A stretch of 64,000 nucleotides of DNA from a virus: IMG/VR virus record IMGVR_UViG_3300017917_005108, positions 1 through 64,000 of that record; one strand, given 5' to 3'. A program made the translations under genes and the position numbers. This document shows, piece by piece, positions 236 through 60,429 of this stretch. The notes under the pieces are model-generated. The model saw nothing but the letters and a program-made list of their open reading frames with translations, was not told where the DNA came from and ran no database searches. Each line of letters begins with the position of its first letter. Positions within the stretch are counted from its first letter, which is position 1.

Positions 236-282
236 TATGAAAATTTATTCCAATCAAAATGTAAATACAGAAAATAATGCAT

Positions 283-688
283 TGGAGCTGGCGGGAATTG
301 AACCCGCGTCTTGAATAATTTCACTCACAGGCACTACAAGTTTATTTTAGTTATAATTTCATGAGGATTAAACTAAACAAAAAGCCCTCATTCATAACAA
401 TTTTATACATACAATCTATTAATTGTTATAACCCAGATTATACGGAAACTAGTAACACGCTCCATTTTACAAGCTTCAATCTACAATGGAACGATTGAGC
501 TTAAACTAGCTCAAGTGTGGCTTCTGTGTCCACAAAGCCAGCTGCTGCAAGAATTGCATCAGCCTCTTCGAGACTCATAGCCATGTCGAAGTTGTCTTCG
601 GCATTTAATATGATTGCTATTTTATACTGGCATGCCCCAGTACTTGCACTCATGAACTCCACCATTCAATCGATACCTTTACAGCCCC
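283..688 (-). ncRNA. ssrA: Transfer-messenger RNA (tmRNA), one-piece, phage-encoded
   Basis: tmRNA rescues stalled ribosomes by acting first as alanyl-tRNA and then as mRNA for a degradation tag. Read on the minus strand, the 5' end GGGGCUG (688 down to 682) pairs in all seven positions with CAGCUCC at the 3' end (one G-U pair), leaving A as discriminator at 283. CCA is not encoded. The 3' part contains the canonical T-arm GACGCGGGUUCAAUUCCCGCC. The 5' part has the D-like segment followed by a GGGGCAUGCC block and AAAAUAGCAAUC just before the resume codon, as in bacterial ssrA. Length is about 406 nt. Order is normal, not circularly permuted as in alphaproteobacteria. A hairpin (UUGAGCU / AGCUCAA) holds the tag stop codon. 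Confidence 0.93.
501..617 (-). other. Predicted tmRNA tag reading frame (38 codons plus stop)
   Basis: The likely resume codon is GCA at 617-615, directly after AAAAUA, matching the AAUAGUC-GCA arrangement in E. coli. From there the frame runs 38 codons to UAA at 503-501. The peptide starts AIILNAEDNF, is strongly acidic in the middle (SLEEAD) and ends TLELV. Typical bacterial tags are 8-15 residues ending ALAA. The UAA lies in the loop of a downstream hairpin, as expected for helix 5, which supports this frame. The resume codon is inferred from position only. The same frame is open upstream to an ATG at 653, giving 50 codons in all. Confidence 0.7.
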
Positions 689-8996: not shown

Positions 8997-9854
8997 ATGG
9001 TAAATTGCGATAAAGAGTATTTGATTGTTGTAGGTGACAGTAATAGTTATGGTTCAGAATCAATAGTAGATGGGGATATGGACAGTAGAGAAAATATAAA
9101 CAATTGTTATGGATTTTTTTTAGCAGAAAAATTAGGTATTAAAAAAGAAAATTATCATAATTTGTCTTTACCGGGAGCATCTAATCTCTATATAAGTAAA
9201 AAGGTAACAGAATCTTTAGCCTATTTTGAAGAGAAAAATATAGATTTTAGTAAATTGTTAGTAATTGTTGGTTGGTCAGAGCCAACTAGAACAACTATTA
9301 CATTTCCCGGGGAAAAAACAGCTCAAGTTTCCCTATTTCTTTATAACTTATTCTATAAAGTAACTCTTACAGAGCTGTTAACTAAAAAAAGCAAGACTCC
9401 TAAATCAGTTGAGTTTGAATATGATAAAGAGATATACAAAAAATATCTCTCAAAGTGTAAGGAATATCCCTATTATGAGTCTCTTATTAAAGGACTAGGA
9501 TTATATTTTCTAAACTCTGATCTTGCTTTATATCAGGATTTAATCTTAAGACGTGGTGTTGTGGGTATACTTGAAAATAAAGGTATTAATTATTTTTCTT
9601 TTCCTACAATAAGAGAGATTTATTTTAAAAACTACTTTGATATAATTAATACTTTCTCTATTAAAAATAATATATTTACTTTTAAAAAAAATAAGTACTT
9701 TTTTAACTCAAAAAGCCATGCATTAAATTTTTGTTTTTTTGAAAAATTTAGTAAGTTCGGAAGAAGTTCTGTTGCAGGGCACCTAAAGCGTGAAGCGCAT
9801 AATGAGGTTGCAGAGTTTATTTTTAATGAGCTTAGAGCTAGAAAAATTATTTAA
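8997..9854 (+). CDS. SGNH/GDSL hydrolase-like protein
   Basis: 285 residues. The N-terminus LIVVGDSNSYGSE (G13-D14-S15) matches SGNH block I, with Ser15 as candidate nucleophile. NLSLPGASN supplies the block II Gly/Asn region, and AGHLKREAHN near the C-terminus supplies a His in the place of block V (the usual DxxH Asp is not obvious). Such enzymes deacetylate or hydrolyse esters of sugars. Here it opens the accessory island next to a glycosyltransferase, so sugar O-acyl chemistry is plausible. It overlaps the convergent GT31-like gene by 4 nt. Confidence 0.65.
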   Translation: MVNCDKEYLIVVGDSNSYGSESIVDGDMDSRENINNCYGFFLAEKLGIKKENYHNLSLPGASNLYISKKVTESLAYFEEKNIDFSKLLVIVGWSEPTRTTITFPGEKTAQVSLFLYNLFYKVTLTELLTKKSKTPKSVEFEYDKEIYKKYLSKCKEYPYYESLIKGLGLYFLNSDLALYQDLILRRGVVGILENKGINYFSFPTIREIYFKNYFDIINTFSIKNNIFTFKKNKYFFNSKSHALNFCFFEKFSKFGRSSVAGHLKREAHNEVAEFIFNELRARKII

Positions 9855-10618
9855 ATTAAAGCATTATTGTAATATGGATTGAGCGGTATAAACTTTTGCA
9901 AAATAGACATTTTTTCACTAAAATTATCAATTTTGTGCAATTTATTAAAAAGTAAATAGTTAACAGGATGAATTATTAAGCCATCTTTAGATATATCAAA
10001 AAATTTATAATTTTTATTTTTACCCAAGTTTAATATTGCGGCATTATTTAAATTGCAATGGTAGCCAATGGTTACATCTTCTTGATAGAATGGACATACA
10101 TTTTTTTTAAAGCTTTCTACTATTTTTACTGCAATTTGTCTACTTAAAAAATAGCATCCACCTACAGCATATTTGAAATTTCTATTATAGCCTGTATAGC
10201 TATTAAATGTTATCTGTGAATTTTTAGTTTTTAGTTTATAGTATTTTTCTGAATTTTTTAATCTTTTTTTGTGTTTATTAAAGCTCGTTATTATTCCTAT
10301 ATAATCTCTTCCTTTAAAATCTAATTTAGATAATACATCTAAATCTAAATATGTATCATCATCTACTTTTGCAATATAATCAAATCTTTTTGCAGAATTT
10401 AATGCATGTTCAATCATTTTAATAACTTTATATTTTATAGAAATATAGCTATCTTCTACATTAACGAGAATATATGGTAGATTAACATTTATACTATCAT
10501 TTTTACCGAGAAAAAAGTTAAATTCATACCCACTTTTAGAATAATATTTTATTAAAGACTTATGCTTATGTAAATTATTTTTATGCGTAATAATACCTAA
10601 ATAAATATTTTTATTCAT
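9851..10618 (-). CDS. GT31-like (beta-1,3-galactosyltransferase/Fringe fold) glycosyltransferase
   Basis: 255 residues. The donor-site DDD lies at 86-88 in YIAKVDDDTYL. A later AVGGCYFLSR and the acidic QEDVTIGYH motif follow in the order expected for GT31 and Fringe enzymes, where ED(V) precedes a catalytic acidic residue. No signal peptide, so it acts in the cytoplasm. Substrate unknown. A weaker late-like octamer, TAAAAATA, lies 6 nt before the ATG. The gene is divergent from the AsnB-like gene across 84 bp that hold no other gene. Confidence 0.7.
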   Translation of the reverse strand: MNKNIYLGIITHKNNLHKHKSLIKYYSKSGYEFNFFLGKNDSINVNLPYILVNVEDSYISIKYKVIKMIEHALNSAKRFDYIAKVDDDTYLDLDVLSKLDFKGRDYIGIITSFNKHKKRLKNSEKYYKLKTKNSQITFNSYTGYNRNFKYAVGGCYFLSRQIAVKIVESFKKNVCPFYQEDVTIGYHCNLNNAAILNLGKNKNYKFFDISKDGLIIHPVNYLLFNKLHKIDNFSEKMSILQKFIPLNPYYNNALI

Positions 10619-10688
10619 TTACTATATTTTTAATACTTAGCCTTCTAATTACTAGAAATCAATATAACTAGACTTCTAAATTTTTACT

Positions 10689-10696
10689 TATAAATT
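10689..10696 (+). promoter_or_regulatory. Late-promoter-like octamer TATAAATT
   Basis: TATAAATT differs from the T4 consensus only in the last base and lies 6 nt before the ATG at 10703. Confidence 0.35.
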
Positions 10697-10702
10697 ATAT
10701 AA

Positions 10703-12103
10703 ATGAGTGGTTTTTTAGTCACTAATAAAAATATAAATGATAATAATTTAGAAAAGGTAAATTTTTTTTTAAAAAAAAGAGGACCAGATGAAACTACATT
10801 TTCTAATTACGATGATTTATCTATTATCTTTAATTTAAACAACATAAGCAATAATATATGTAGGTATCCGTTTATTCGTGATAATATTTTAATTTTACTT
10901 GACGGAGAAGTCTTTAATTATAGAGACATTTATAAAGAATCTAACTCTTGTTGTGAAAGCATTTTTCATAATTACAAAAACAAAAGAAAAAATTTCTTGA
11001 ATGGTATTGATGGTGAATATGCTATTGTTTTAGTTGATTTTAATAAAAATTTAATCTACGCTACTACAGATTTATTTGAAACAAAACCATTATATATAAG
11101 CATTCAGGATGAAAGCTTTGGAATCAGCTCTCTTCCTAGTGCACTTAAAGCACTTGGATTTAAAAAAATAAAAAATTTTAGAAGTAATTGTGCTCTTGAG
11201 TTTAATCTCAAAAATAAAAAAATTCAAGATATGTATAGTTATTATAAATTTGATATTAATAATGAGCACAAAAAACATTTTGAAGACTGGCATATAGCTT
11301 TTGAAAATGCTGTAAAAAAAAGAGTATCATCTTTGCTACCCACAAGTAATATATGCTTGTCTCTGAGTGAGGGCTATGATAGTGGAGCTGTCGCTGCTAG
11401 TTTTAAGAAGTTTGATATATCTTGTTTTTATTTCTCTTACATTACTCAATTGAATAACCCTGAAGTTTTAAATTATAGACATGATATTGATACTAATCTT
11501 CCTTTAAATAAGAATGGTGAATTATTTATAAGCCCAAATTTTAAAAATAAAAAATTAATACCTATCGATGATAAAACATTTAATATTAGCAAAGCATTAT
11601 ATAAAAGCTTAAATGAAAGTTTTTATTATATAACTTACTTAAATAACGGTACTTTAGTTAAGCGCAAAGGTGATAATCATTTTATGACGTTCATTTATTA
11701 TAGTTTTTATAATTTTATAAAGAATAATAAAATAAAAGTAGGATTTACTGGTATTTCTGGTGACGGAGTAGCATACCCTAACGTAAATGAAATAATTAAA
11801 AAATATAATAGCATACTGCCTATTGCAAACGGCGGAGCAGGAAGCAATCTTCAAGCAAGTATAATATTTGGTAATTTAGGTGTTGAAAGTAGATCTCCTT
11901 TTACAGACCCTGCGCTTCTTCAGGAAAGTCTATGGATGGATAAGAGTGTTTATAGAAATGAAAATAATAATTTAAAAGCCCCTATTCATGATTATCTAGA
12001 AAAAGAAAAATTTCCATTTTATTCTAGAGACAAAACCGGTAAACTAAAGCATGAAAAATATGGATTTGGAAATTACTTAAACTTTAACATTTTATGTGAC
12101 TAA
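10703..12103 (+). CDS. Asparagine synthetase B-like protein lacking the catalytic Cys
   Basis: 466 residues with class-II glutamine amidotransferase then synthetase domains. RRGPD-like RGPD (26-29), DGEVFNYRD (67-75) and TDLFETKPLY (122-131) match the glutaminase half. LSLSEGYDSG (219-228) is the PP-loop (SGGxDS in the family), and SGDGVAYP matches SGxGxDE poorly. The nucleophilic Cys2 of the family is Ser here (MSGF), and the PP-loop reads SEGYDS. So glutaminase activity is probably lost; it may use ammonia, or adenylate and amidate another substrate, or be inactive. It is followed by a coupled gene (TAATG). Confidence 0.75.
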   Translation: MSGFLVTNKNINDNNLEKVNFFLKKRGPDETTFSNYDDLSIIFNLNNISNNICRYPFIRDNILILLDGEVFNYRDIYKESNSCCESIFHNYKNKRKNFLNGIDGEYAIVLVDFNKNLIYATTDLFETKPLYISIQDESFGISSLPSALKALGFKKIKNFRSNCALEFNLKNKKIQDMYSYYKFDINNEHKKHFEDWHIAFENAVKKRVSSLLPTSNICLSLSEGYDSGAVAASFKKFDISCFYFSYITQLNNPEVLNYRHDIDTNLPLNKNGELFISPNFKNKKLIPIDDKTFNISKALYKSLNESFYYITYLNNGTLVKRKGDNHFMTFIYYSFYNFIKNNKIKVGFTGISGDGVAYPNVNEIIKKYNSILPIANGGAGSNLQASIIFGNLGVESRSPFTDPALLQESLWMDKSVYRNENNNLKAPIHDYLEKEKFPFYSRDKTGKLKHEKYGFGNYLNFNILCD

Positions 12104-12837
12104 TGAATTTTAAATCTTTTTTATTAAGCAATCAGGTCTCTACTTTTTTTAATAAGTATAAAAATATTATTGGTAATAATAATACCTTAGCTGTATTAAT
12201 TTCAAAAAATTATAAAAATAAAAGCACAATTTCTACTAAAATATACTGTGAACTGAGAGATAATAATGTAGATATATATAAAAACTTTTTTACAGATACA
12301 TTATTAATAGAACAGCTATTACCTTTTTGGAATAAAGATAGAGAATCTAGTCTTTGTGTTGGGTTAAAATATATAGAGAGTGAGAAAATATATGTTCCGT
12401 ACTTCCATATAAAATTTAATTATAATAAAATTATTAATTTAAATATCTATAAACCCGAAAAAAGTATATTACCAGAAAATAACCTTAGAGGGATATCTAT
12501 TGAATTTTACAAAACACCTGTCATTAAAAAATATTTTTATTATAACAGCATTTTAGAAAAAGAATTTTTTTCAAAAAAATTTAAATTACATCAACTTCCA
12601 TCTCATTTTGAATATACAGAGTACAATAATTTAAATAAAATGATATTTGTTTATGAAAATAATACAAATATAAAAACAACAACAAATATTTTAAAATTAA
12701 AAAACAAAAAAATTAATTCAGATATAAAATCTACCTATAAATTGTATAAGGTATTACCTTGCTTTTATGGAAAATATATCTCTGATGATGTTACCAGTGT
12801 TTACTGGTCTTTAACAAAGAAGAAACTATTATTTTAA
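12103..12837 (+). CDS. Hypothetical protein coupled to the AsnB-like gene (244 aa)
   Basis: No family recognised. The protein is Asn/Lys/Tyr rich with alternating strands and helices (IYCELRDNNVDIY, LLPFWNKDRESSLCVGLKYI). It ends SVYWSLTKKKLLF. There is no signal peptide or membrane span. The start codon shares a base with the stop of the AsnB-like gene (TAATG), so the two proteins are likely made together and may form a substrate and partner pair. It is convergent with the dioxygenase gene (4 nt overlap). Confidence 0.6.
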   Translation: MNFKSFLLSNQVSTFFNKYKNIIGNNNTLAVLISKNYKNKSTISTKIYCELRDNNVDIYKNFFTDTLLIEQLLPFWNKDRESSLCVGLKYIESEKIYVPYFHIKFNYNKIINLNIYKPEKSILPENNLRGISIEFYKTPVIKKYFYYNSILEKEFFSKKFKLHQLPSHFEYTEYNNLNKMIFVYENNTNIKTTTNILKLKNKKINSDIKSTYKLYKVLPCFYGKYISDDVTSVYWSLTKKKLLF

Positions 12838-13592
12838 GTATTAAACCATTGCTTGTCAAAGTTAGTACTACCGTCAGTTATCCTAAAATCTAAAGAAAAT
12901 CTTTTGCCTGTCGTAGTGTTTGTACTACCATGAAGAACATCGCTTCTAAAAATAACTGCATCTCCTTTATTCATATTATTTGCAACCCATGTAGTACTCA
13001 TTTCAGCAGGAGTAATATCTATTTTTGCATCTTGCCATGAACTTGAGGGGTTAACTGAATTAAAAGATGATTTAACTTTATCTATATAAGTCTGCAGGTT
13101 AGTGTTGCTCTCATCTGGTTTTACTAGGCAGAGAACACCATTATTCACTTCTAAGTCTTCTAGTGCAACCCAAATTGTATAAAAATAAGAATTTTGAATA
13201 AAGAAAAACCTATCACAATGCGGATAAGTACCGTGTGTATTTTGTGTTTTTCTTACCCATAAATGGTTTGATAGTACGGGATCTTTTAGAAATTTAAAAG
13301 ATTCAAACAAGGGACTATTTTTGATAGAGAAGTATAAATCAACGTCTGTATCAAAGAAGTATTGTTTTTGAAATTTAAATGTATCTTTAGCTTTGGAAAT
13401 ATTTTTAAAATAAAACATTCTTTTATCGTCTTCGAATTGCTGAATTATTTTTGTTAATTGAATATTGGATACATCCAGAGCATTTCTTAAATATACAAAG
13501 CTATTTTTTAAAAGATAATCATGATAATCAAAAAGTGTATAAAAAGGAGCATTTTCTATACTTACTTCGTCTCCAAATATTTGGGCATTCAC
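12834..13592 (-). CDS. PhyH-like Fe(II)/2-oxoglutarate dioxygenase
   Basis: 252 residues, GTG start. The iron-binding facial triad is clear: H125-x-D127 in TYPHCDRFFF and H221 in SDVLHGSTN, with R231 (GKRFSLDFR) to bind 2-oxoglutarate. WVALEDLEVNNGVLCLV is the typical PhyH strand pair. Enzymes of this family hydroxylate diverse small molecules, sugars, lipids or amino acids. The substrate is unknown; neighbours include an amidotransferase-like gene and radical SAM genes. The late octamer is 7 nt upstream. Confidence 0.8.
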   Translation of the reverse strand: MNAQIFGDEVSIENAPFYTLFDYHDYLLKNSFVYLRNALDVSNIQLTKIIQQFEDDKRMFYFKNISKAKDTFKFQKQYFFDTDVDLYFSIKNSPLFESFKFLKDPVLSNHLWVRKTQNTHGTYPHCDRFFFIQNSYFYTIWVALEDLEVNNGVLCLVKPDESNTNLQTYIDKVKSSFNSVNPSSSWQDAKIDITPAEMSTTWVANNMNKGDAVIFRSDVLHGSTNTTTGKRFSLDFRITDGSTNFDKQWFNT

Positions 13593-13639: not shown

Positions 13640-14596
13640 ATGATTTATGTTGGTGATTTAGAAGCAGATTTGCATGAAAAGTGTAATTTAAAGTGCGTAC
13701 AGTGTTCACATAGTTCTCCTCATAGTAATTCAGATGATAAAAATTATAGTATTGAAGCATTTAATAAAGATTTAAATATATTATCAAAACATCTTCATAG
13801 TAGAGTTTTTAGAATTGTAGGTGGCGAGCCATTACTTAATAAAAATTTAGTAAAATTTATAGAAAATATTAAAAATGTAAAAATATCAGATAAAGTTTCT
13901 ATGTTTACTAACGGTCTATTAATTAGTAAAACGGATCCCAGGGTTTTTGAATTGCTTGATGAAATTAGAATTAGTGTTTACGATCTAGAGCCACAAAAAA
14001 TGATAGCTATTAAAAATAATATAGATTATTTAAAACAGTTTAAAAATTTAAATGTTGAATATAATTGTTTAAAAACATTTTTAGTTTTTAATATTGTTGA
14101 AAAAAATAAAAATCAAGAGTTAGTTAAAAAAATATTTGATAATTGTTATCATAAAAAAGACTCTTATAGTATTTTTAATGGTAAATTTTATAGGTGTTTT
14201 GCTGCGCGTAAAAAATATAATTTTTTGTCAAAACATAAAGAATTGGTAAAAGATGATTTTGAATACCTTAGAGATAACAAGCAAGACTATCTAAATATAG
14301 ATAAAAATGTAACGGAAGAATCATTGAAACAATTTATTTTTAATGATAATCCTTTATCAGCTTGTGCATGGTGTTTAGGCTGTTCTGGTAAAAAAATAAA
14401 AAATTATCAAATTAATCAAAGTGAGCCTGAGTATATAGGTACACTTGAGGACATAAATTTTAATGAAGGCAGCTCCTATGTAAGCAATTGTCTTTTGAGT
14501 TGGCATAGAAAAAAAGTTGAAGAGCTTAATAAGGATGAATTCTATAATTACGACTCTTTAAAAAGCTATAAAAAATCACATAGTACTACTTTTTAA
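13640..14596 (+). CDS. Radical SAM protein 1
   Basis: 318 residues from the ATG at 13640. An upstream in-frame extension overlaps the dioxygenase gene and is rejected. The [4Fe-4S] motif CNLKCVQC (C15, C19, C22) sits at the N-terminus, followed by VGGEPLL (60-66), the SAM-binding GGE. The C-terminal third has a Cys-rich region (FYRCFA ... CAWCLGCSG) that could hold an auxiliary cluster of twitch/SPASM type. Unlike the five following radical SAM proteins, it has no N-terminal Cys domain. Function unknown. The 3' end overlaps radical SAM 2 by 21 nt convergently. Confidence 0.8.
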   Translation: MIYVGDLEADLHEKCNLKCVQCSHSSPHSNSDDKNYSIEAFNKDLNILSKHLHSRVFRIVGGEPLLNKNLVKFIENIKNVKISDKVSMFTNGLLISKTDPRVFELLDEIRISVYDLEPQKMIAIKNNIDYLKQFKNLNVEYNCLKTFLVFNIVEKNKNQELVKKIFDNCYHKKDSYSIFNGKFYRCFAARKKYNFLSKHKELVKDDFEYLRDNKQDYLNIDKNVTEESLKQFIFNDNPLSACAWCLGCSGKKIKNYQINQSEPEYIGTLEDINFNEGSSYVSNCLLSWHRKKVEELNKDEFYNYDSLKSYKKSHSTTF

Positions 14597-15925
14597 TGAA
14601 GAAATGACTCCATCCAGCCTTGACTGATAATATGTCTTGAATTTAAATTTACTTAAAAACTTTATTATTTCTTCTTTTTTACTTTCAGCAAGCGTATAAA
14701 TCGATACTTCTGGTAGTAGAGAAGCTGATACTTCTGTAATTTTATCCTTTAAATTAAAATACGATACGGTATCTTTAACACCATTTTCGTGAATACCTTT
14801 TATACGTCCTCCTAAAGGCCCTCTAACTGTGTTTATAGAAAGATCTATATTATACTTTATACAAAATTCTATAATATTGGGTAATTCATATATGTTTTGT
14901 ATCATTGGACAAAAAGCTATTCCTGCAACACGGTTTAAATCATTAAAAAAATTAAAAGTTTCTAAAACTGTTTTTAAATTACCGTTTTTACGTATAAATG
15001 AATAGGTATTTTCATTTAGTGAGTCAAGACTAAAAATAAGTTTAAAATTTGGCAATGAGAGTACAGTTTCTTTTACTTTGTTATTTAAAATTGAACCATT
15101 AGTTGTTGCAAAAACATTAATATTGGGGTTCAAATTTAAAATTTCATTCCAAATTTTGTAATATATAGGAGTTAAAAATGGCTCACCGCCTAAAAAATTA
15201 CATACCTTTAAATGAGGTATAAACTCCTTAAGTTGATCTACAAAATTATTATCATAAACTTGTTTAAGCGGGTCTAATTTTTCTCTGTTTTTTCTTATAG
15301 ATGAAGAAAAATATCCACCGCACATAATACATTCATAATTACAAATATTAGTAATTTCAAATTCAAAAACTGATGGAAATTGGTTATTAGTATAATTAGA
15401 ATAAAAATCAAACTTATGTAGTAAGGAATTTTTAAAATTACCCGTTTTAATCTGATTAAAACATAAATCACATCCTTTTGAAAAATCAAACTCAGCTAAA
15501 CTTTTTCTCATATGATCTAGATAAGCACCAAACCAGACTTCTTTTATACTGTTTTTTGGAAAAGATCCTAAGCTAAACGATCTACTATAACAGCAAACAT
15601 TAATATTACCTGTTTTATCAAAATTTAGAGTAGTGTAAGGAGCATTACATATATATTTTCTTGAACTATGATTAGCATTAAAATACTTTTTAGCTAAAAT
15701 TTTATTGTTGAGCTGTGTAATAATTGTGGAACCTATTTTATCAGTAGAAAAATTTTCTAAAACAAAGTTGAAGTCGCTTACCCCACTATAATTTACCAGA
15801 TCAATAAATTGAGTAAAAAAAACTTTTAATTCTAAAGTATTATTATTTAAAGTTTTATACTTTTTAAAATAATCTTTTAAATCGTTTAATTTTTTTCTGT
15901 TTGCTGCGGTGAGGTTAAATGTCAT
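14576..15925 (-). CDS. Radical SAM protein 2, N-terminal twitch-like domain
   Basis: 449 residues. Residues 90-156 carry C93, CC111-112 in the strand-turn GNINVCC, and C152/C155 (CDLC), a pattern resembling SPASM/twitch auxiliary-cluster domains but placed before the radical SAM core. The core has CNYECIMC (C195, C199, C202) and LGGEPFL (245-251). Such N-twitch radical SAM proteins are often linked to peptide or sugar modification. Its ATG overlaps the stop of radical SAM 3 by 4 nt, giving one unit with radical SAM 4 and 3 upstream. Confidence 0.8.
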   Translation of the reverse strand: MTFNLTAANRKKLNDLKDYFKKYKTLNNNTLELKVFFTQFIDLVNYSGVSDFNFVLENFSTDKIGSTIITQLNNKILAKKYFNANHSSRKYICNAPYTTLNFDKTGNINVCCYSRSFSLGSFPKNSIKEVWFGAYLDHMRKSLAEFDFSKGCDLCFNQIKTGNFKNSLLHKFDFYSNYTNNQFPSVFEFEITNICNYECIMCGGYFSSSIRKNREKLDPLKQVYDNNFVDQLKEFIPHLKVCNFLGGEPFLTPIYYKIWNEILNLNPNINVFATTNGSILNNKVKETVLSLPNFKLIFSLDSLNENTYSFIRKNGNLKTVLETFNFFNDLNRVAGIAFCPMIQNIYELPNIIEFCIKYNIDLSINTVRGPLGGRIKGIHENGVKDTVSYFNLKDKITEVSASLLPEVSIYTLAESKKEEIIKFLSKFKFKTYYQSRLDGVISSLKSSTM

Positions 15926-17079
15926 ATAAAAAATTCTGTAAAAATATCTTTAAATTTTATATTACTATTATTATCTTTTTCATTAATTTTACTAAAAAAA
16001 GTTTTAAGAGTTGTTTCTTTTGGCTTATCTAATAATTTAATTATTTTAAAAATTTTACTTTTCGGAAGCATTTTATTTGCATATGAATTATTTACATCAG
16101 ATAGAAATTCAATGTATTTTGTAAGCTTTTGTTTAACTAAACATTTTGTTTTATCAGGAAGAACATTTAAAAAATAATGTTTTGGAGATGACAAAATATA
16201 ATAACGTAAATTATCCTTACTAAGTAATTTTTCGTTATACCATTTATAATGAAAATCTGGTAATGTAAAGATATTCATATTAGTGATAACTGCCTGCACC
16301 ATAAATTTAATATTAGAATATTTTAATAATTCTATTCTATTTTTTTCTATATCACGCCATTTAGTTCCTTTTCTTATGTATTCTGCTCTTTCACCGTATG
16401 TGTCTAAGCTAGCTATAACCGTTGCGTTATTAAATTTATTTAAAAGCTCTAAAATTTCATTATTTAAAATACTTAAATTTGTTATAAAATTTATTTCTAC
16501 GTTTAAATTATTAGTGTTATACAGATGTTTTATCATTTCTAAGTATCCTTTCTGTAGCATTGATTCACCTGCTGCAAAATTAATAACTTTTATTTTTTTG
16601 CTAAATTGTTTAAATAAATCTAATTGAGCTTTCAAAGAAACAAAGCTTTTTAAAAGCTTATTAGAATTATTTGCTTTTTCTTCATAAAACATAGTACTGT
16701 ATTTAAAATTACAATACATACATTTAAAATTACATAAGTTTGACTCGTTGATGCTCCATACAATAAAATTTTCAAAAAATGTACCATCAAATGCAGTTTG
16801 CGCAAAATATTCATTTTTTTTATTTAAAATTTCTTCATTTAAAAAATTATTAATAGGTTGTGGTCCAGCAAAACAATGATTAAAACACTCTTTGCACGGG
16901 GTATTTTTAGTAAACGATACCCTTAATTTTTTTAAAACCTCTGAATTCCATAATTCATTAACATTGTCAGAGGTTTTTCCTACTAAAAATTTTTCATTTC
17001 CTGCTAATTTACAGCATGGGTAGACACTACCATCAGAATGATAAAACATATGTACCCAGGGCAATAAACAACTATTCAT
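15922..17079 (-). CDS. Radical SAM protein 3, N-terminal twitch-like domain
   Basis: 385 residues. The N-terminal Cys domain starts at once: C4 in CLLPW, CC22-23 after DGSVYP, and C62/C65/C69 in CKECFNHC. The radical SAM motif is CNFKCMYC (C116, C120, C123), followed by NFAAGESML in the place of GGEP. The C-terminus is helical and Lys/Asn rich. Start and stop overlap the flanking genes by 8 and 4 nt, so translation is coupled. Role unknown. Confidence 0.8.
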   Translation of the reverse strand: MNSCLLPWVHMFYHSDGSVYPCCKLAGNEKFLVGKTSDNVNELWNSEVLKKLRVSFTKNTPCKECFNHCFAGPQPINNFLNEEILNKKNEYFAQTAFDGTFFENFIVWSINESNLCNFKCMYCNFKYSTMFYEEKANNSNKLLKSFVSLKAQLDLFKQFSKKIKVINFAAGESMLQKGYLEMIKHLYNTNNLNVEINFITNLSILNNEILELLNKFNNATVIASLDTYGERAEYIRKGTKWRDIEKNRIELLKYSNIKFMVQAVITNMNIFTLPDFHYKWYNEKLLSKDNLRYYILSSPKHYFLNVLPDKTKCLVKQKLTKYIEFLSDVNNSYANKMLPKSKIFKIIKLLDKPKETTLKTFFSKINEKDNNSNIKFKDIFTEFFI

Positions 17080-18313
17080 AATTTAAAACTTTAAATTCTG
17101 GAAAAACATTACATAAATTTATCTTTCGTGATGCATCAAGTTTTTTATTAAAATCAATAAAACCTCTAAGTTGATTGCTTTTATCTTCTTTAAACATGTA
17201 TGATATAAAATTTTTATATTCTTTTACGCTTTTATCGTGGTAAAAATTATATATACCATCTTCTTTTATTGACTCCAACCATTTTATATGCGAATTATAT
17301 TTTTCTGCAATCTTAACTTTTAATAAAGCAGGTAACAGTTGAACTGTGTGATCATCTTTAAATACAGGATTTAATCTAAATCTATTTGCTTTAATATAAC
17401 CTTTATTAAAAAATTCTCTATGAAGGTCAGGAACATGAAGTGCATTAATAGCACTTACAGCAGTATAAAGGTGTAGCTCTACTTGTGGAGCTATTTCTAA
17501 AAGATCTTGTATGTTTTGCTCAATAGTTGCCCATAATCCAGCGTTATCATAGCCTCTTATATATTGATTACATTCTCTTAACCCATCGATACTCATTAAA
17601 ATAATAACTTTTTTAAAGCAGGATAATTTCTTAAAAATATCTACACCTTTAAAAAACCTGGTGCTCATGTTTGTATTATATAAAAGATGAACATCTAGAA
17701 TATTATTATCAATAAGGTAGTTTAAAACATCAATATTTTCGCTTGTGAGAAATGGTTCACCAGCTGAACTCATGTGTATAAGTTTTGCATTCTTAAGTTG
17801 AGGTTTAATTTGATTTAAAAATTTTTGTTTTAATTCTGTTGAAATATTGTAGAAATTAACATCAATTTTTTTGTTAAAAAGTTCCTCTGATTCTTTTATC
17901 CAACTACTACTTCTCTCTGGCTCGCACATTCTACACTTAAAATTACATAAATTAGTAAAACTAAGATGTATATATTTTTTTGGTAGTTTAAAAAACAAAT
18001 TTTCAATTACATATTTTTTAATAAATTCTTTAAAATAATAATTACCCCAATTTCTGGGTGATTTATATCCTATATCCTCATACATTTTGCACATTTTACA
18101 GCAATTTAAAAAATTTTTTTTTCTGCTTCTGCTTTTCATTAGTAATTTAATTCTAGAGAAAAAAGTATTTGTTTCTATTTCTTCAGCATTTAGCTTAAAT
18201 AAGCTATTTTTTTCAGAAAAGGTAAACTCCTTTCTCCACATGCATGGGCAAGGCGAGTAGTACCCGTGTAGATTTCTAAATCCTATCCAAGGAAATATGC
18301 AGAATTTTGCCAC
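17072..18313 (-). CDS. Radical SAM protein 4, N-terminal twitch-like domain
   Basis: 413 residues, GTG start. N-terminal Cys set: C5 in CIFPWIG, C22/C24 in SPCPCMW, then CC71-72 and C75. The core motif is CNFKCRMCEPERS (C123, C127, C130), followed by SSAGEPFL. The C-terminal half closely resembles radical SAM 5 (HLLYNTN, VDIF, FKKVI, IKANRF.LNP), so the two are paralogues. It is the first gene of the 4-3-2 unit, with the octamer TGTAAATA exactly 5 nt before the GTG. Confidence 0.85.
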   Translation of the reverse strand: MAKFCIFPWIGFRNLHGYYSPCPCMWRKEFTFSEKNSLFKLNAEEIETNTFFSRIKLLMKSRSRKKNFLNCCKMCKMYEDIGYKSPRNWGNYYFKEFIKKYVIENLFFKLPKKYIHLSFTNLCNFKCRMCEPERSSSWIKESEELFNKKIDVNFYNISTELKQKFLNQIKPQLKNAKLIHMSSAGEPFLTSENIDVLNYLIDNNILDVHLLYNTNMSTRFFKGVDIFKKLSCFKKVIILMSIDGLRECNQYIRGYDNAGLWATIEQNIQDLLEIAPQVELHLYTAVSAINALHVPDLHREFFNKGYIKANRFRLNPVFKDDHTVQLLPALLKVKIAEKYNSHIKWLESIKEDGIYNFYHDKSVKEYKNFISYMFKEDKSNQLRGFIDFNKKLDASRKINLCNVFPEFKVLNYE

Positions 18314-18318
18314 AGAAA

Positions 18319-18326
18319 TATTTACA
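18319..18326 (-). promoter_or_regulatory. T4-type late promoter octamer TGTAAATA
   Basis: TGTAAATA, spacer TTTCT (5 nt), then the GTG of radical SAM 4. It lies back-to-back with the octamer for radical SAM 5 in a 49-bp divergent gap. Confidence 0.55.
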
Positions 18327-18349
18327 TGCTTTATAGTTGTTTACTAGCT

Positions 18350-18357
18350 GATAAATA
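18350..18357 (+). promoter_or_regulatory. T4-type late promoter octamer GATAAATA
   Basis: GATAAATA, spacer TAACT (5 nt), then the GTG of radical SAM 5 at 18363. Confidence 0.6.
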
Positions 18358-18362
18358 TAACT

Positions 18363-19649
18363 GTGAAGGTTACGGAAGAACAAAAACAATTCTTAATACA
18401 AAAAAGCAATATTTTCTGTCTTTCACCTTTCATGGGTAATAAACAATATTTTAATTACTTTTCACCTTGTTTGTCTGAATGGAGAGATCACCATTTTGTG
18501 GAAGACAACGATTTAAAAATATATGATGCTAATGAGATTATTAACTTGGAAAAATACAACAAACTGCGTCTTGCAATGCTAAAAAATGATACAACTTGTA
18601 AAGAATTAGATAGATGTAAAATGTGTAAAATGTTTCAATCTGCCGGATCTAGATGTTCTAGAGAATGGAGTAATTATTATTATGCTGATATTTTTGATGA
18701 AATATTAGATAATATAGATGATGATGGTTCATTAAAAGACCCAAATAAAATTTATTATGTACATCTTTCTTATACAAATACATGCAATTACAAGTGTAGA
18801 TATTGCGAACCGGAGCGCTCAGGTGCACTAACAAGCGAATTTAAAGCTTTAAAGAAAAATATTAATTATACAGTAGATACAGAAAAAAAAGATTTTTTTA
18901 AAAAACAATTATTTGAAAAATGGAAGCCAAAGCTACTGTCTACCAGGCTGATACATTTTACCTGTAGTGGCGAAGCATTATTGACCCAGGAAAATATAGA
19001 TGTAATGAATTTTTTAATTGAAAATAATAAAACAGATGTTCATTTACTATATAATACAAACTTATCTGTAAGAACATTTAATAATGTAGATATTTTTAAT
19101 CTGTGGAGCAAATTTAAAAAAGTAATAGTTTTAGTTTCTGCAGAAGGTTTAGATCCTTACAATAAAATTATTAAAGGTTCACCTTGTTCATTCAAAACAG
19201 TAGAAGAAAATATAAAAACTCTACGCACAATGCCTAATATTGTTTTAAATGTTCATGCAACTTACGGTGCACATAATATGTTACATCTTCCTTACTTTCA
19301 TAGATATTTATACGAACAAAAATTAATAAAAGCTAATGAATTTTATTTAAATCCTTTATTTCAAGACCCTGAAAGCGTACAAATTTACCCTCAATATATG
19401 AAGAAAAAGACAGAAGCAGTATTTTTAAAGCATATAGAATGGTTAAACTCAATAAATGAAGAGGGTATAGTAAATTTTTATTTTAATAAAAGCAATATAG
19501 AATATGAAAATGCTATTAAATTTATGTACTCTGCTGATAAAACAAATTTAATAAAAGATTATATACAGGGTTATATAGATATAGATAAATTTAGAAAAAC
19601 AGATTCTTTTGTTCTCGAAGAGTTAAAGCTTTTAAAGATGCACACTTGA
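18363..19649 (+). CDS. Radical SAM protein 5, N-terminal twitch-like domain
   Basis: 428 residues, GTG start. N-terminal Cys set: C19 in FCLSPF, C36 in SPCLSEW, and CKMC (C85, C88). The core motif is CNYKCRYCEPERS (C141, C145, C148), then CSGEALL. It is a paralogue of radical SAM 4 across the whole length, transcribed divergently from it, which suggests duplication with inversion or independent capture. The C-terminus ends LEELKLLKMHT and overlaps the convergent radical SAM 6 gene by 18 nt. Confidence 0.85.
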   Translation: MKVTEEQKQFLIQKSNIFCLSPFMGNKQYFNYFSPCLSEWRDHHFVEDNDLKIYDANEIINLEKYNKLRLAMLKNDTTCKELDRCKMCKMFQSAGSRCSREWSNYYYADIFDEILDNIDDDGSLKDPNKIYYVHLSYTNTCNYKCRYCEPERSGALTSEFKALKKNINYTVDTEKKDFFKKQLFEKWKPKLLSTRLIHFTCSGEALLTQENIDVMNFLIENNKTDVHLLYNTNLSVRTFNNVDIFNLWSKFKKVIVLVSAEGLDPYNKIIKGSPCSFKTVEENIKTLRTMPNIVLNVHATYGAHNMLHLPYFHRYLYEQKLIKANEFYLNPLFQDPESVQIYPQYMKKKTEAVFLKHIEWLNSINEEGIVNFYFNKSNIEYENAIKFMYSADKTNLIKDYIQGYIDIDKFRKTDSFVLEELKLLKMHT

Positions 19650-20621
19650 TAATGGTACAATAAAGCTTGAAGTTACATTATGTTTTAAAGAATATTTTTT
19701 AATTTTATCTTCAATTTCATTTAATTTATTAGCGGGTATTGATTTAAGAGCTATTTGTGATAGGTTTTCAGGGTTGTATTCAATTATAGTAGGTCTAAAG
19801 ACTATATAATTAGTCATAGTTTTAGAAGCTATTTCTATTATTTTTTCATATTCATAAATATTAAGCGTATTTAAATTTACATTTATTTTAGATATAATAG
19901 TTTCTGGTTTTAGTTCATTAAATGTTTTTATATTATTAATAACTTTGTTAAAATTTTTATAAATTCTTATTTTGCTGTAAGTCTCTTTAGTGCCTGCATC
20001 AATAGAAAAGGTCACATTACCATGAGGCACTTCTTTTAAAAAATTTGTTATTATTGTTTTGTTTAGAAGAGTACAATTAGTAATTATATCAATTTTAAGC
20101 GTGTTTTTAAAGGCTTTATAATTAATATAATTTAATATATTAAAGATATTTTTTTTATAAAATGGCTCAGCTAAGCCGGTAATTTTTAAAGTTTTTAAAG
20201 TTGATAAGTAGGGTTTAATTTTATCTAATATTTTGTATGTTAAATTATCATTCTGCGGTATAAAATTAAGTGATGATCTGGGACACATTAAGCATGCTGT
20301 AAATTTAGTTGGCGCAGGTCCGCCTATATTGCAACTATAATTGGGTAGCTCTATTTCTATGCTTTCTATTTCATTTGTATTAATACAATAATTTTTATGT
20401 AATATCATCTTTGGACAACCTAAACTATTAATACAATTATGATGAAATTTATTATTTAATAAATAGCTTTTGATATTATTGTTGGTAGCATTATTAATAA
20501 TTTCTTCTATGTTTTTTATAAAGATATTTCCTAACGGTATCTTTTGATAACAGCAATTAAAAACATTGCCGTGTGAGTCTATTTTTAAATTATTAAAAGG
20601 ATACAGGCAGCGTACACTCAT
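19632..20621 (-). CDS. Radical SAM protein 6 with expanded CX12CX2C cluster motif
   Basis: 329 residues. The N-terminal twitch-like part has C5 (RCLYPF), CC23-24 after HGNVFN, and C63/C69. The core cluster site reads C97, C110, C113 (SCNIGG ... TACLMCPRS), that is CX12CX2C instead of CX3CX2C. The insertion keeps the downstream CPRS seen in MoaA-like proteins. LKITGLAEPFY replaces GGEP. QueE variants show that enlarged loops can still bind the cluster, so activity is possible. It overlaps the upstream four-Cys gene by 4 nt. Confidence 0.75.
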   Translation of the reverse strand: MSVRCLYPFNNLKIDSHGNVFNCCYQKIPLGNIFIKNIEEIINNATNNNIKSYLLNNKFHHNCINSLGCPKMILHKNYCINTNEIESIEIELPNYSCNIGGPAPTKFTACLMCPRSSLNFIPQNDNLTYKILDKIKPYLSTLKTLKITGLAEPFYKKNIFNILNYINYKAFKNTLKIDIITNCTLLNKTIITNFLKEVPHGNVTFSIDAGTKETYSKIRIYKNFNKVINNIKTFNELKPETIISKINVNLNTLNIYEYEKIIEIASKTMTNYIVFRPTIIEYNPENLSQIALKSIPANKLNEIEDKIKKYSLKHNVTSSFIVPLSSVHL

Positions 20622-21088
20622 AAAAGTTTTAAAGAAAAAATTTCTTTTCTTGTTATTGTATCAAAAAATACACAAAAATAGTTTTTGCTGGTGTTTAAAT
20701 AAATCATAAACATGTAATTTTTTAAATTAAATTTAAAGATAATTTTATAAACAGCTACATAGTTTATACTTAAAAAATATATTAAATTATCATAAAAACA
20801 AATAAAAGCTTTTCTTGCTTTACAATAACTAAAAATAGTAAATTTTTTAGGCTTTATTTTGTTTTTTAAATTATATTTTTTAAGTTTTTTTATTTTATTT
20901 TTATCTAACTTTTTAATGCGTTTTATAAAACTGGACTTTAAAAACGATATATCGCAGTCCAAGCAATTTGTCTTCAATAAAAAATTTAGCTGTTTAAAAT
21001 ATTCGTTTCTTAAATTTTCGCAATTATATATTTCACTTGGACATTGCTTTTCTTTATTAAAAAAATTTTCTATTATTATAGGTGTCAT
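20618..21088 (-). CDS. Four-cysteine CX6CX18CX2C protein with basic and hydrophobic tail
   Basis: 156 residues. Residues 1-60 carry C16, C23, C42 and C45 with the same spacing as the 59-residue protein at 8113-8292, and with shared residues around them. Then comes a very Lys-rich linker (60-85), followed by a Phe/Tyr/Ile-rich C-terminal half (IFSYCKARKAFICFYDNLIYF...) that may be a small beta domain or membrane-associated. It lies between a GT8 gene and radical SAM 6, with 4-nt overlaps on both sides. It could be an accessory or substrate protein for the radical SAM enzyme; this is inference. Confidence 0.6.
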   Translation of the reverse strand: MTPIIIENFFNKEKQCPSEIYNCENLRNEYFKQLNFLLKTNCLDCDISFLKSSFIKRIKKLDKNKIKKLKKYNLKNKIKPKKFTIFSYCKARKAFICFYDNLIYFLSINYVAVYKIIFKFNLKNYMFMIYLNTSKNYFCVFFDTITRKEIFSLKLL

Positions 21089-21873
21089 AAGTACATCTTA
21101 TATTCTCTTAAAGCTGCTTTTAACGCTAAATATTTGTCAGCTGATATAGCGCCTAAGTCTTCATTTAATACAAAGTCATCGTAATTTTCTTTTAATTCAA
21201 AATTTTTATTAAACCATGGTTTTTTATTTCCAACAAAATGTAAAAAAATAGCACTATTTAATTTTTCTTTTGATAGAAAACTAGTGGTGATGAAATATTT
21301 TTGAGGCAAAAGAGTTAAGTGTTTTTTAAATATTATATTAAATGTAGCTTGATTGCCTAACCAAGAATATTTTTTTGCTGTATTATATGCATTTAAGAGA
21401 AATTTTTTATTTAAAAATTTTTTATTTATCAACATTACACCACAATTAAAGCCATCATTAAATCCTATATGTGGTATTTCTTCTTTTATCATTGGGTGGT
21501 GGCAAGCACCAAAGTCTAAATTAAAATCTAACAATTCCTGTATACTTCCTCTACAAATCATATCTACATCTAAAAATATTATTTTCTCAAAGTTTTTTAT
21601 AGTAAAAATTTCAAATCTGTTACCTGGATTTATTCTCCATTGCCTCATTCCAGAAAACTTTAAATTTTTATATCTTTTTTTGTTTATATCACAAACAGTA
21701 ATGTTGGAGTATATCTGTTTAATGGTTTTTATGTCTTTTTCATCTAAATTACCTTCGTTAAAAATAATATATGGTAAACAAATACCCGGGTTGTTTTTGA
21801 GAATACTTTTTAATAAAACTATAAATCCTGGTACATAGTCTTTTGTTAATGTTGAAACAAAGCACTGCTTCAT
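21085..21873 (-). CDS. GT8-family glycosyltransferase (glycogenin/LgtC-like)
   Basis: 262 residues from the ATG at 21873. The donor-site DVD (D102, D104) lies in KIIFLDVDMICRGS. FNCGVMLINK and FLHFVGNKKPW (His and Gly-x-K-P-W near the end) are GT8 landmarks. An in-frame ATG at 21921 would add 16 residues, but 21873 is preferred: the protein then begins in GT8 style (CFVSTLTKDYV), and the octamer TGTAAATA lies exactly 5 nt upstream. It transfers a hexose from a UDP-sugar, probably to a surface glycan. First gene of the unit with the four-Cys protein and radical SAM 6. Confidence 0.82.
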   Translation of the reverse strand: MKQCFVSTLTKDYVPGFIVLLKSILKNNPGICLPYIIFNEGNLDEKDIKTIKQIYSNITVCDINKKRYKNLKFSGMRQWRINPGNRFEIFTIKNFEKIIFLDVDMICRGSIQELLDFNLDFGACHHPMIKEEIPHIGFNDGFNCGVMLINKKFLNKKFLLNAYNTAKKYSWLGNQATFNIIFKKHLTLLPQKYFITTSFLSKEKLNSAIFLHFVGNKKPWFNKNFELKENYDDFVLNEDLGAISADKYLALKAALREYKMYL

Positions 21874-21878
21874 TAAAC

Positions 21879-21886
21879 TATTTACA
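21879..21886 (-). promoter_or_regulatory. T4-type late promoter octamer TGTAAATA
   Basis: TGTAAATA, spacer GTTTA (5 nt), then ATG at 21873. It decides the GT8 start. Confidence 0.55.
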
Positions 21887-21923
21887 TTGAAAATTACATC
21901 ATCAATATTATAATAAAGCATAT

Positions 21924-22571
21924 ATGCATGTTGTTTTTTTAGTTCCTCATGCTGATGATGAAGTTTTGCTTGGTGGCGGCACTATATCAAAGCATAAGCG
22001 TTGTAATGATACTGTATCTGTATGTACACTGGAGGAAGGTACTACAGATAGAACAATTTGTCAGAATAATGATATTTATGAGGCCGCAAAAATTTTAAAA
22101 ATAGATAATATCCACTGCTTAAATTTAGATGAGGATACGATTAGCAATAAATTAGACATTTTAGCAAAAAAAATTGAAGAGTACCTCTCTTCACAAAAAA
22201 TAGATATATTATATACAGTTTCTCCTGCTGACAACCATCAAGATCATAGAGCTCTTATTAAAGCTGTTAATATTGCAACAAGAGTAATAGGCCCATGCCC
22301 TATACCTGTTATAAGATGTGGTGAAACTATATCCTCTACAGATCAAACATTTAAATGTTTAGCGGCATTTACACCTAACTACTATAATATTTTGACTAAA
22401 GATGATTTACAGAATAAAATTAATGCTCTTAAATGCTATAAAAAAGAATTTAAGTCTCAACCTCATCCGAGATCTACAGAAATATTAAAAGCGTATGCAG
22501 AAATTAGAGGTTCAGAGTGTGGGAGTATGTACGCTGAGGCATTTATGCAAATGCGTAAAATTTCTTTTTAG
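21924..22571 (+). CDS. PIG-L family deacetylase
   Basis: 215 residues. PHADDE (8-13) is the zinc site and catalytic base of GlcNAc-PI de-N-acetylase and related LmbE-type enzymes, and NHQDHR supplies the later His ligands. These enzymes remove N-acetyl groups from GlcNAc or similar amino sugars. In this setting it would de-N-acetylate a sugar made or transferred by the neighbouring glycosyltransferases. No signal peptide, so cytoplasmic. The stop overlaps the convergent GT32-like gene by 4 nt. Confidence 0.88.
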   Translation: MHVVFLVPHADDEVLLGGGTISKHKRCNDTVSVCTLEEGTTDRTICQNNDIYEAAKILKIDNIHCLNLDEDTISNKLDILAKKIEEYLSSQKIDILYTVSPADNHQDHRALIKAVNIATRVIGPCPIPVIRCGETISSTDQTFKCLAAFTPNYYNILTKDDLQNKINALKCYKKEFKSQPHPRSTEILKAYAEIRGSECGSMYAEAFMQMRKISF

Positions 22572-23326
22572 CTTTCGTACTTAAAATAGAGATAATTAAG
22601 ATAAGAATCAGGTAAAGGGTTATTTAAATCATACATTACTCTTGAATTCCACTTACCTGTAGTTACAGCTGTGCTGCACCAGTGTATACAATATCTTTCA
22701 TTTAAAAGATTAATTGAATCACTATAGTTATTCAAAAATTTAAATATTTCTTCCATACTATCATTACCAAAATATTTTTTATCTACAACATACGGTAATA
22801 AATTTTCTGATAATATTTGATTATAAAATATTTTCAATGGCTTTATATATTCATTATTATGTTCATTAATACATTTTTCAGTATTTTTTTTAAGCTTTAA
22901 AAGCATGTGGTAGTCTTTAGGTAATTTTATCGTATTAGATACAACTTTAAACTTATTATGTGGCTTAAGAACAATGTGCTTACTTTGAAAAAAATCACTA
23001 TTAAAATTCTTAATACATGTTGTATCAAAGTCTACATACCAGCCACCGTATTTAAATAATAATTCATATCTAAAAATATCAGAGAACCCTCCAATAGAGT
23101 TTAATGGACAATCACCATTGCCTTGATAATAAAAAACCTTATCTTTAGGTAAAATTTCATTTGCATCAGTTATGTTTAAGTTTTTATGCTTTAAATGATC
23201 AAAAGATTTTGAATTATATGTAAAAATATTAACTTTATGGTTATTGATTAGAAAGCTCTTTATATTTAAATTGTCAAATCTAGTGAGAGGTTTACCATCC
23301 CAGAAAAAATTAATATGGTTTTCCAT
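22568..23326 (-). CDS. GT32-like glycosyltransferase (DXD sugar-binding)
   Basis: 252 residues. The signature run GFSDIFRYELLFKYGGWYVDFD (80-101) with its DFD donor site is typical of Gly_transf_sug/GT32 mannosyl- and capsular transferases. The N-terminus HINFFWDGKPLTRF fits the family start. Cytoplasmic, donor unknown. It starts inside the 3' end of the dehydrogenase gene (17 nt overlap). A TAAATA octamer lies 14 nt upstream, within that gene. Confidence 0.8.
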   Translation of the reverse strand: MENHINFFWDGKPLTRFDNLNIKSFLINNHKVNIFTYNSKSFDHLKHKNLNITDANEILPKDKVFYYQGNGDCPLNSIGGFSDIFRYELLFKYGGWYVDFDTTCIKNFNSDFFQSKHIVLKPHNKFKVVSNTIKLPKDYHMLLKLKKNTEKCINEHNNEYIKPLKIFYNQILSENLLPYVVDKKYFGNDSMEEIFKFLNNYSDSINLLNERYCIHWCSTAVTTGKWNSRVMYDLNNPLPDSYLNYLYFKYES

Positions 23327-24095
23327 TGTTTTTTCTGTGGTATTTATTTAAATTAGAATAAAATGTAGCAAGCCTGCTTTTTGAAAATTTAATAAATTCA
23401 TGAATATCTTTAGTAAAACAGTGACCTCCCCATCCAAATTTTTTATCCCTTCCAGGAACATCTAAGTGGGATGAGCCTATACGCTCATCTAATCCAAGCA
23501 TTTTAGTAAACTCTTTAAAAGTACTCCTTAATTTTAGCTTTTTATGTATTAAAAATAATTCATTAGCTAGCGTGACTTTTAAAGATAAAAATACATTTTC
23601 AGAGTATTTTATAAGTGAAGCTGTCTGTATGTCAGTGGTATGAACATTCTTAACTTTCCTAAGTCTTGATTTTAATATCTTGCAGACTGTTTTAGCAGCG
23701 GAAGACTGACCTCCGGCAATAATAAACTTTTGATTAATAAAGTCATGTATATTATTCCAATGTGAGAGATATTCAGGGCTATGAACCAATTTTAAGTGTT
23801 TAAACTGTTTTTCTGCATTTTTGTAGAAAATAGGTGACGCTGTAGATTTGCAACAAACCAATAATTCAGTAAACGTACTGTTTAATGCTTCTAAAATACT
23901 ATTTAATAGTTTAAAATTTTCATTTTTTGGTGTATCAACACAAACGAAGGCAATATCTATTTTTGTATTTTTAAACGTTTGAATAGTATTATTGTTATAT
24001 TTTGGATCAACTATATGAACAATGTCTTTTTTAAAAGCGGATGCAACAGCTTTACCGACATAGCCATAGCCAATTATTAAAACATTATACTTCAC
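23310..24095 (-). CDS. Shortened UDP-glucose/GDP-mannose dehydrogenase-family protein
   Basis: 261 residues, GTG start; full enzymes have about 390-450. The NAD-binding GYGYVG (9-14), CVDTP, and HSPEYLSHWN segment are present. The catalytic Cys is in FGWGGHCFTKD (C226). The C-terminal UDP-sugar-binding domain is absent, and the protein ends shortly after the catalytic Cys. Since the substrate site is normally built from both domains, it may have changed specificity or need a partner. The ORF is clean, with no frameshift visible. Upstream the start is preceded by ATATAATA plus 5 nt, a looser version of the late element. Confidence 0.78.
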   Translation of the reverse strand: MKYNVLIIGYGYVGKAVASAFKKDIVHIVDPKYNNNTIQTFKNTKIDIAFVCVDTPKNENFKLLNSILEALNSTFTELLVCCKSTASPIFYKNAEKQFKHLKLVHSPEYLSHWNNIHDFINQKFIIAGGQSSAAKTVCKILKSRLRKVKNVHTTDIQTASLIKYSENVFLSLKVTLANELFLIHKKLKLRSTFKEFTKMLGLDERIGSSHLDVPGRDKKFGWGGHCFTKDIHEFIKFSKSRLATFYSNLNKYHRKNNGKPY

Positions 24096-41125: not shown

Positions 41126-41136
41126 TTATTATTATA

Positions 41137-41144
41137 TATTTATA
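41137..41144 (-). promoter_or_regulatory. T4 consensus late promoter octamer TATAAATA
   Basis: Perfect TATAAATA, 11 nt before ATG at 41125. Predicted leader is about 6 nt, the one clear exception to the 5-nt rule. Confidence 0.55.
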
Positions 41145-60416: not shown

Positions 60417-60421
60417 AGAAG

Positions 60422-60429
60422 TATTTATA
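60422..60429 (-). promoter_or_regulatory. T4 consensus late promoter octamer TATAAATA
   Basis: Perfect TATAAATA, spacer CTTCT (5 nt), then ATG at 60416. The best single match in the window to T4 late geometry. Confidence 0.7.

Follow-up and report, generated by a model that had tools for sequence, protein, structure and literature searches.

Two papers, dating from 2017 and 2020 (PMC5332604, PMC7029224), describe the phage loci closest to the one reported here: the T4-like environmental genome TARA_ERS488813_N000010 carries 12 radical S-adenosylmethionine (SAM) genes (PMC5332604), and pelagimyophages, according to PMC7029224, carry radical SAM cassettes in a host-recognition cluster among GT8 and other glycosyltransferases and tail fibres. 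Here we analyze six radical SAM-type open reading frames (ORFs), genes A–F, that fill positions 13640-20621 of the window, the first 64 kb of the 162,497-bp IMG/VR virus record IMGVR_UViG_3300017917_005108. Like the pelagimyophages, the window phage has a T4-like genome of similar size, with radical SAM genes, GT8-type glycosyltransferases and tail fibres in a hypervariable region, and it combines a T4-like Gp23 with radical SAM and glycosyltransferase genes beside tail genes, as expected of a host-recognition-cluster cassette. Unlike them, its closest isolate capsids are those of cyanophages (32-34%), and pelagimyophage status is not shown. TARA_ERS488813_N000010 is likewise T4-like with many radical SAM genes, but has 12 of them plus an A-type Fe-S carrier, whereas the window phage has six, and a search of its record aimed at IscU/NifU scaffolds alone found none. 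A sequence-only reading had called the locus previously undescribed; for this kind of locus, these precedents contradict it. The consulted parts of PMC7029224 give no subfamily, partner set or bacterial link. New here are the link to bacterial polysaccharide-type loci, the mobility of single cassettes, the cluster motif of gene F, the late-promoter spacing and a shuffled gene set common to relatives of B and C. We propose, with a probability of roughly 50%, that the locus serves glycan modification, as a late-expressed, modular and mobile cassette of the host-recognition region in this T4-like phage, and that its enzymes would edit host-surface or virion sugars.

Six radical SAM-type genes with a common N-terminal domain in five

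The record encodes a Gp23 capsid protein (292 bits), a portal, a tail sheath and a phage DNA polymerase, and because the capsid is only ~32-34% identical to its best isolate matches, mostly from cyanophages, the phage represents a distant branch. Genes A–F and the gap between D and E are as follows:

13640..14596, + strand: gene A, radical SAM protein without an N-terminal twitch domain (Radical_SAM 38.6 bits; CX3CX2C at residues 15-22; C-terminal Cys cluster CAWCLGC)
14576..15925, - strand: gene B, N-twitch radical SAM protein with a CNYECIMC core (NF033640 147.4 bits; a phage and bacterial, Bacteroidota, subfamily)
15922..17079, - strand: gene C, N-twitch radical SAM protein (NF033640 225.6 bits; SPASM 40.4 bits)
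17072..18313, - strand: gene D, N-twitch radical SAM protein, paralogue of E (NF033640 229.4 bits; 41% identical to E)
18314..18362, no strand: 49-bp gap from which D and E diverge, each gene having its own late-type TAAATA motif
18363..19649, + strand: gene E, N-twitch radical SAM protein, paralogue of D (NF033640 202.1 bits)
19632..20621, - strand: gene F, N-twitch radical SAM-like protein (SPASM 27.5 bits; CX12CX2C instead of CX3CX2C)

The arrangement is as the sequence-only reading had it, with genes in both directions, overlaps of 4-21 bp between adjoining genes and the divergent 49-bp gap. At ~25% G+C an estimated ~9% of random codons would be stops, and frames of 318-449 codons are therefore not expected by chance. 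All six proteins match radical SAM models, and the canonical CX3CX2C is present in A–E; the earlier claim of six ORFs with cluster motifs thus holds in position and family but not for the motif of F. The profile search that had been suggested places C, D and E above the 170-bit cut-off of NCBIfam NF033640, the model for twitch domain-containing radical SAM proteins, with B (147.4), F (94.8) and A (28.8, core only) below it, although B and F cover most of the model. With Pfam PF04055 (gathering score 29.5), A (38.6), B (50.3) and C (45.6) lie above threshold and D (20.1), E (26.1) and F (24.3) below.

A Cys-rich domain precedes the core in B–F, in agreement with the five twitch/SPASM-like proteins proposed earlier: Pfam SPASM matches B, C and F, conserved N-terminal Cys residues occur in D and E, and A lacks such a domain. 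Because the N-terminal domains of B and C, in profile comparisons, match the C-terminal portion of the aminocyclitol enzyme BtrN, these two proteins probably carry a twitch-type auxiliary cluster domain at the N-terminus. Gene A is of the MoaA-like core type; its closest solved relative, of moderate similarity, is a 4Fe-4S cluster-binding domain-containing protein (PDB 7wzv, residues 8-256, E=1.5e-23). The AlphaFold model of B is good (predicted local distance difference test, pLDDT, 82) and Foldseek aligns it with radical SAM structures; the model of F is poor (pLDDT 63), yet also matches radical SAM folds. Cluster-site residues are kept among relatives at 20-50% identity, and the enzymes are predicted to bind [4Fe-4S] and cleave SAM.

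Gene F departs from this pattern. Its core motif is CX12CX2C (C97, C110 and C113), unique among 526 homologues of at least 280 residues; CX3CX2C is absent from only three of these, F and two that start at contig ends. F could be a degenerate member of the set, or one with a regulatory role.

The core matches also bring to mind a viperin-like role, with nucleotide chemistry used for defence or counter-defence in the infected cell, as the cores of A, B and C score 41-48 bits with PADLOC pVip and viperin structures are among the PDB and Foldseek matches. These matches are confined to the shared core, and the NCBIfam viperin model gives B 42.7 and C 40.6 bits against a cut-off of 180. To our knowledge, viperins have no N-terminal twitch domain. 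We consider a viperin-like role highly improbable.

The sugar-gene neighbourhood recurs in other phages

Pfam confirmed the neighbours named in the sequence-only reading, and the features on either side of A–F are as follows:

8997..9854, + strand: GDSL/SGNH-like protein, weak (Lipase_GDSL E=0.0095, below cut-off)
9851..10618, - strand: Galactosyl_T-family (GalT) glycosyltransferase (54.7 bits)
10703..12103, + strand: AsnB-like protein without the catalytic N-terminal Cys (GATase_7 only; N-terminus MSGF)
12103..12837, + strand: u244, a 244-residue protein of unknown function (homologues 30-36% identical in L091, L095 and L099)
12834..13592, - strand: PhyH-type 2-oxoglutarate (2OG) dioxygenase (PhyH 49 bits; late-type motif AATAAATA 7 nt upstream)
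20618..21088, - strand: u156, a Cys-containing protein (no Pfam match; weak homologues in L095-L097)
21085..21921, - strand: GT8-family glycosyltransferase (94.4 bits)
21924..22571, + strand: PIG-L-family deacetylase (63.8 bits)
22568..23326, - strand: Gly_transf_sug glycosyltransferase (33.7 bits; homologues adjoin bacterial radical SAM genes)
23310..24095, - strand: uridine diphosphate (UDP)-sugar 6-dehydrogenase-like protein, UGDH (UDP-glucose 6-dehydrogenase 7kws, E=5e-15)
26073..27683, - strand: tail-fibre/baseplate protein (PHROG tail families)

A survey of gene neighbourhoods, also suggested earlier, bore fruit: in phages with relatives of B (25-51% identical) and C (33-37%), genes for AsnB-like, GT8, PIG-L, Gly_transf_sug, GalT, UGDH and u244 proteins recur in shuffled order. 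One such phage (L095) shares at least nine non-radical-SAM genes with the window, and a u244 homologue adjoins the C homologue in L091, L095 and L099. The AsnB-like proteins of these phages vary in the catalytic Cys, which is present in L091 (5172-6557) and L099 (12840-14138), both with MCSF, and lost in L095 (MSSF) as in the window. In the related phages, AsnB, GT8 and PIG-L genes did not adjoin radical SAM genes significantly often. When the phage radical SAM genes are taken more widely, the Pfam families in their surroundings include carbamoyltransferases, GDSL hydrolases, galactosyltransferases, methyltransferases and 2OG oxygenases. Sequence searches of the PDB with the window PhyH and Gly_transf_sug proteins gave no matches.

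Relatives of C occur in 76 IMG/VR loci, many with 7-12 radical SAM genes head to tail, and one 174-kb phage record has 17 radical SAM matches; six such genes in one phage are no record, and the set is not unprecedented. Radical SAM gene sets thus recur in many aquatic phage records, with up to 12 in a row and up to 17 per record. Among phage isolates, C has no match and D two weak ones (Vibrio phages K566 and K567). Scans of IMG/VR with A, D, F and the D/E pair gave no confirmed relative, a weak negative as they used exact peptide patterns. On other phage contigs (L009:5483-21140, L022, L017 and L054), 9-12 different N-twitch radical SAM genes follow one another on a single strand, in similar size order and often after a conserved protein of ~317 residues.

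Bacterial relatives of B lie in polysaccharide-type loci

The subfamily of B is also found in 70 bacterial-genome loci, nearly all from Bacteroidota metagenome-assembled genomes, at 32-46% identity to B. The 96 genes adjacent to these bacterial relatives include GDSL (17), Gly_transf_sug (9), AsnB (6), GT2 (5) and PhyH (4); in a control set of 96 distal genes, the first three of these families number at most two each, being absent among the matches listed, where the lowest count is two. ABC-2 transporters occur among the distal control genes. In 21 of 29 bacterial loci, a homologue of the window Gly_transf_sug protein lies directly next to a radical SAM gene, and none of 20,000 permutations brought the two as close. 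In L121 the order is a CMAS methyltransferase, a UbiA prenyltransferase, AsnB, an unknown gene, Gly_transf_sug, three radical SAM genes and a GDSL-like gene.

These mostly Bacteroidota loci resemble the window in having adjacent Gly_transf_sug, AsnB and GDSL genes and in grouping their radical SAM genes, as many as six together, on both strands. They differ in being chromosomal, with a full synthase domain in AsnB and no tail genes noted, and L121 adds the UbiA- and CMAS-type genes; no Asn_synthase domain was detected by Pfam in the window AsnB-like protein, which matches GATase_7 only. In L121, L129, L109-L111 and similar loci, a Gly_transf_sug gene has as many as six N-twitch radical SAM genes beside it, on both strands, and in several bacterial loci Gly_transf_sug is part of a larger protein of ~670-700 residues.

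A late-type motif precedes D, E and the PhyH gene

The TAAATA motif (NNTAAATA) ends 0-20 nt upstream of 20 of the 49 window genes, where 1.3 would be expected; the usual distance to the start codon is exactly 5 nt, and for many structural genes it is 5-7 nt. In the divergent gap, TGTAAATA sits 5 nt before the GTG start of D and GATAAATA 5 nt before the GTG start of E. The late octamer claimed for each divergent unit survives in this form only, as the exact TATAAATA octamer is not enriched and is rarer than in shuffles. Elsewhere in the record TAAATA precedes the genes for tail sheath, portal and head-tail adaptor, and the 79-101 kb replication region, with its DNA polymerase and two helicase genes, is almost devoid of it. 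This contrast between structural and replication genes makes TAAATA, at its fixed spacing, most likely the late promoter of the phage. Examples of the motif at gene starts are found at 18314-18362, 39563-41144 and 60417-60429.

Within the cassette the motif stands before D, E and PhyH and not before F, u156 or GT8; the overlapping genes C and B, which share the strand of D, would therefore be co-transcribed with it. Conservation of the motif before the radical SAM genes of related phages is not clear. T4 late-promoter geometry would put the transcription start at or near the start codon, and the late mRNAs may accordingly be leaderless.

The set appears to have been gathered from several lineages

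In a phylogenetic tree that left out A, D and E are sister paralogues (support 1.0), C falls within the phage clade of L091, L095 and L099, B within a phage clade close to bacterial sequences, and F forms a deep branch beside the group of B and the bacterial sequences. These lineages together with A amount to about five for six genes, which argues for a set brought together from several sources, not for a single tandem expansion. In a relative of the phage (L101; capsid 82% and portal 73% identical), a B-type gene (9731-11149) lies inside the head module between two genes that adjoin each other in the window phage, where the site is empty (L088:8032-9568). Single B-type genes are therefore mobile.

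Such mixed origins, together with mixed orientations and an island AT-richer than the rest of the window, could also mark the genes as hitchhikers or decaying cargo that a hypervariable island has picked up and that form no coordinated pathway, a reading to which the loss of the canonical motif in F and of the Cys in the AsnB-like protein also points. We find this rather improbable, given six intact frames at 25% G+C, the retention of cluster-site residues at such low identities and the joint occurrence of the same gene types in distant phages and bacteria.

Candidate substrates and rival readings

The glycan-modification reading draws on the sugar-gene neighbours in the window, the shuffled sets in other phages, the bacterial neighbourhoods, the late motif and the BtrN-like N-terminal domain. 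The late timing and the sugar or surface target proposed by the sequence-only reading fit this late-type motif and these neighbourhoods; its peptide alternative gains no support. That alternative would be a pathway of the kind that makes ribosomally synthesized and post-translationally modified peptides (RiPPs), cross-linking or epimerising a short phage-encoded peptide. The proteins do give weak matches to the peptide-maturase radical SAM models StsB, PapB and CbpB, and two small ORFs of unknown function, u244 and u156, lie near the set. The overlapping genes A–F leave no space for a precursor, however; no PqqD/RRE, protease or exporter match was found by Pfam in ten flanking proteins, very small ORFs not having been exhaustively scanned; and the u156 homologues in L096 and L097 adjoin g8532 rather than an N-twitch gene. 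We judge a RiPP-like pathway very unlikely.

The cassette adjoins the tail-fibre module and bears the late-type motif, and the radical SAM enzymes might instead modify virion proteins, for example by altering or cross-linking tail-fibre side chains, in which case the sugar genes would be unconnected neighbours that share a hypervariable region with them. Proteins or peptides are frequent substrates of SPASM/twitch enzymes, and the Foldseek matches include SuiB, SkfB and anSME. This role is nonetheless unlikely in our view, since no tail genes were noted near the bacterial relatives, whose neighbours are polysaccharide-type genes, and since these sugar genes of the window accompany B and C in other phages.

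Several observations weigh against a glycan-modification cassette. Many SPASM/twitch enzymes work on peptides, and the Foldseek list for B holds the peptide enzymes SuiB and SkfB alongside MoaA, BlsE and viperin. A search of the available literature returned no published activity for the N-twitch radical SAM subfamily. PhyH is not enriched near bacterial radical SAM genes (4 adjacent, 11 distal), and with the control ceiling of two, GDSL alone is clearly enriched (P=0.0004; Gly_transf_sug, 0.06). The GDSL match in the window is weak. The window AsnB-like protein lacks the glutaminase Cys, and a Pfam scan detected no C-terminal domain in the window UGDH.

From the gene content, domain types, motif, recurrence and bacterial context described above, a setting for which the support is good, we infer a substrate, reaction, partner roles and outcome for the glycan-modification cassette. 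The enzymes would bind [4Fe-4S] and SAM and form a 5'-deoxyadenosyl radical, which would take hydrogen from a sugar carbon and lead to epimerisation, dehydration, oxidation or coupling, with the N-terminal auxiliary cluster perhaps passing electrons. Among the partners, UGDH would oxidise, the AsnB-like protein amidate, PIG-L deacetylate, PhyH hydroxylate and the glycosyltransferases attach sugars. The outcome would be a host outer glycan changed to block superinfection, or a decorated virion. If so, phages rewrite surface sugars by radical chemistry, which bears on superinfection exclusion and phage-host recognition.

A broader reading can be offered only tentatively. N-twitch radical SAM proteins might form a large undescribed class of sugar-editing enzymes, arranged in assembly-line sets in bacteria (mostly Bacteroidota) and T4-like phages to write unusual surface glycans; phages would swap single members as cassettes to alter the infected-cell surface, and F would be a new CX12CX2C variant of the cluster loop. 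The bacterial polysaccharide-type context points to a testable substrate class, for which culturable Bacteroidota could serve as a model.

Other features of the record

The sole other NF033640 match in the record, a weak one, is a QueE-like radical SAM gene, named by reading its sequence, at 112.3-113.1 kb (record 112348-113115; L087:10348-11115), and its presence suggests 7-deazaguanine-type chemistry elsewhere in the phage. This T4-like phage also has a transfer-messenger RNA gene at window 282-688 (- strand; Rfam RF00023 at 96.3 bits, with 47 as the gathering score), which ARAGORN calls as well, with an unusually long tag of 33 residues.

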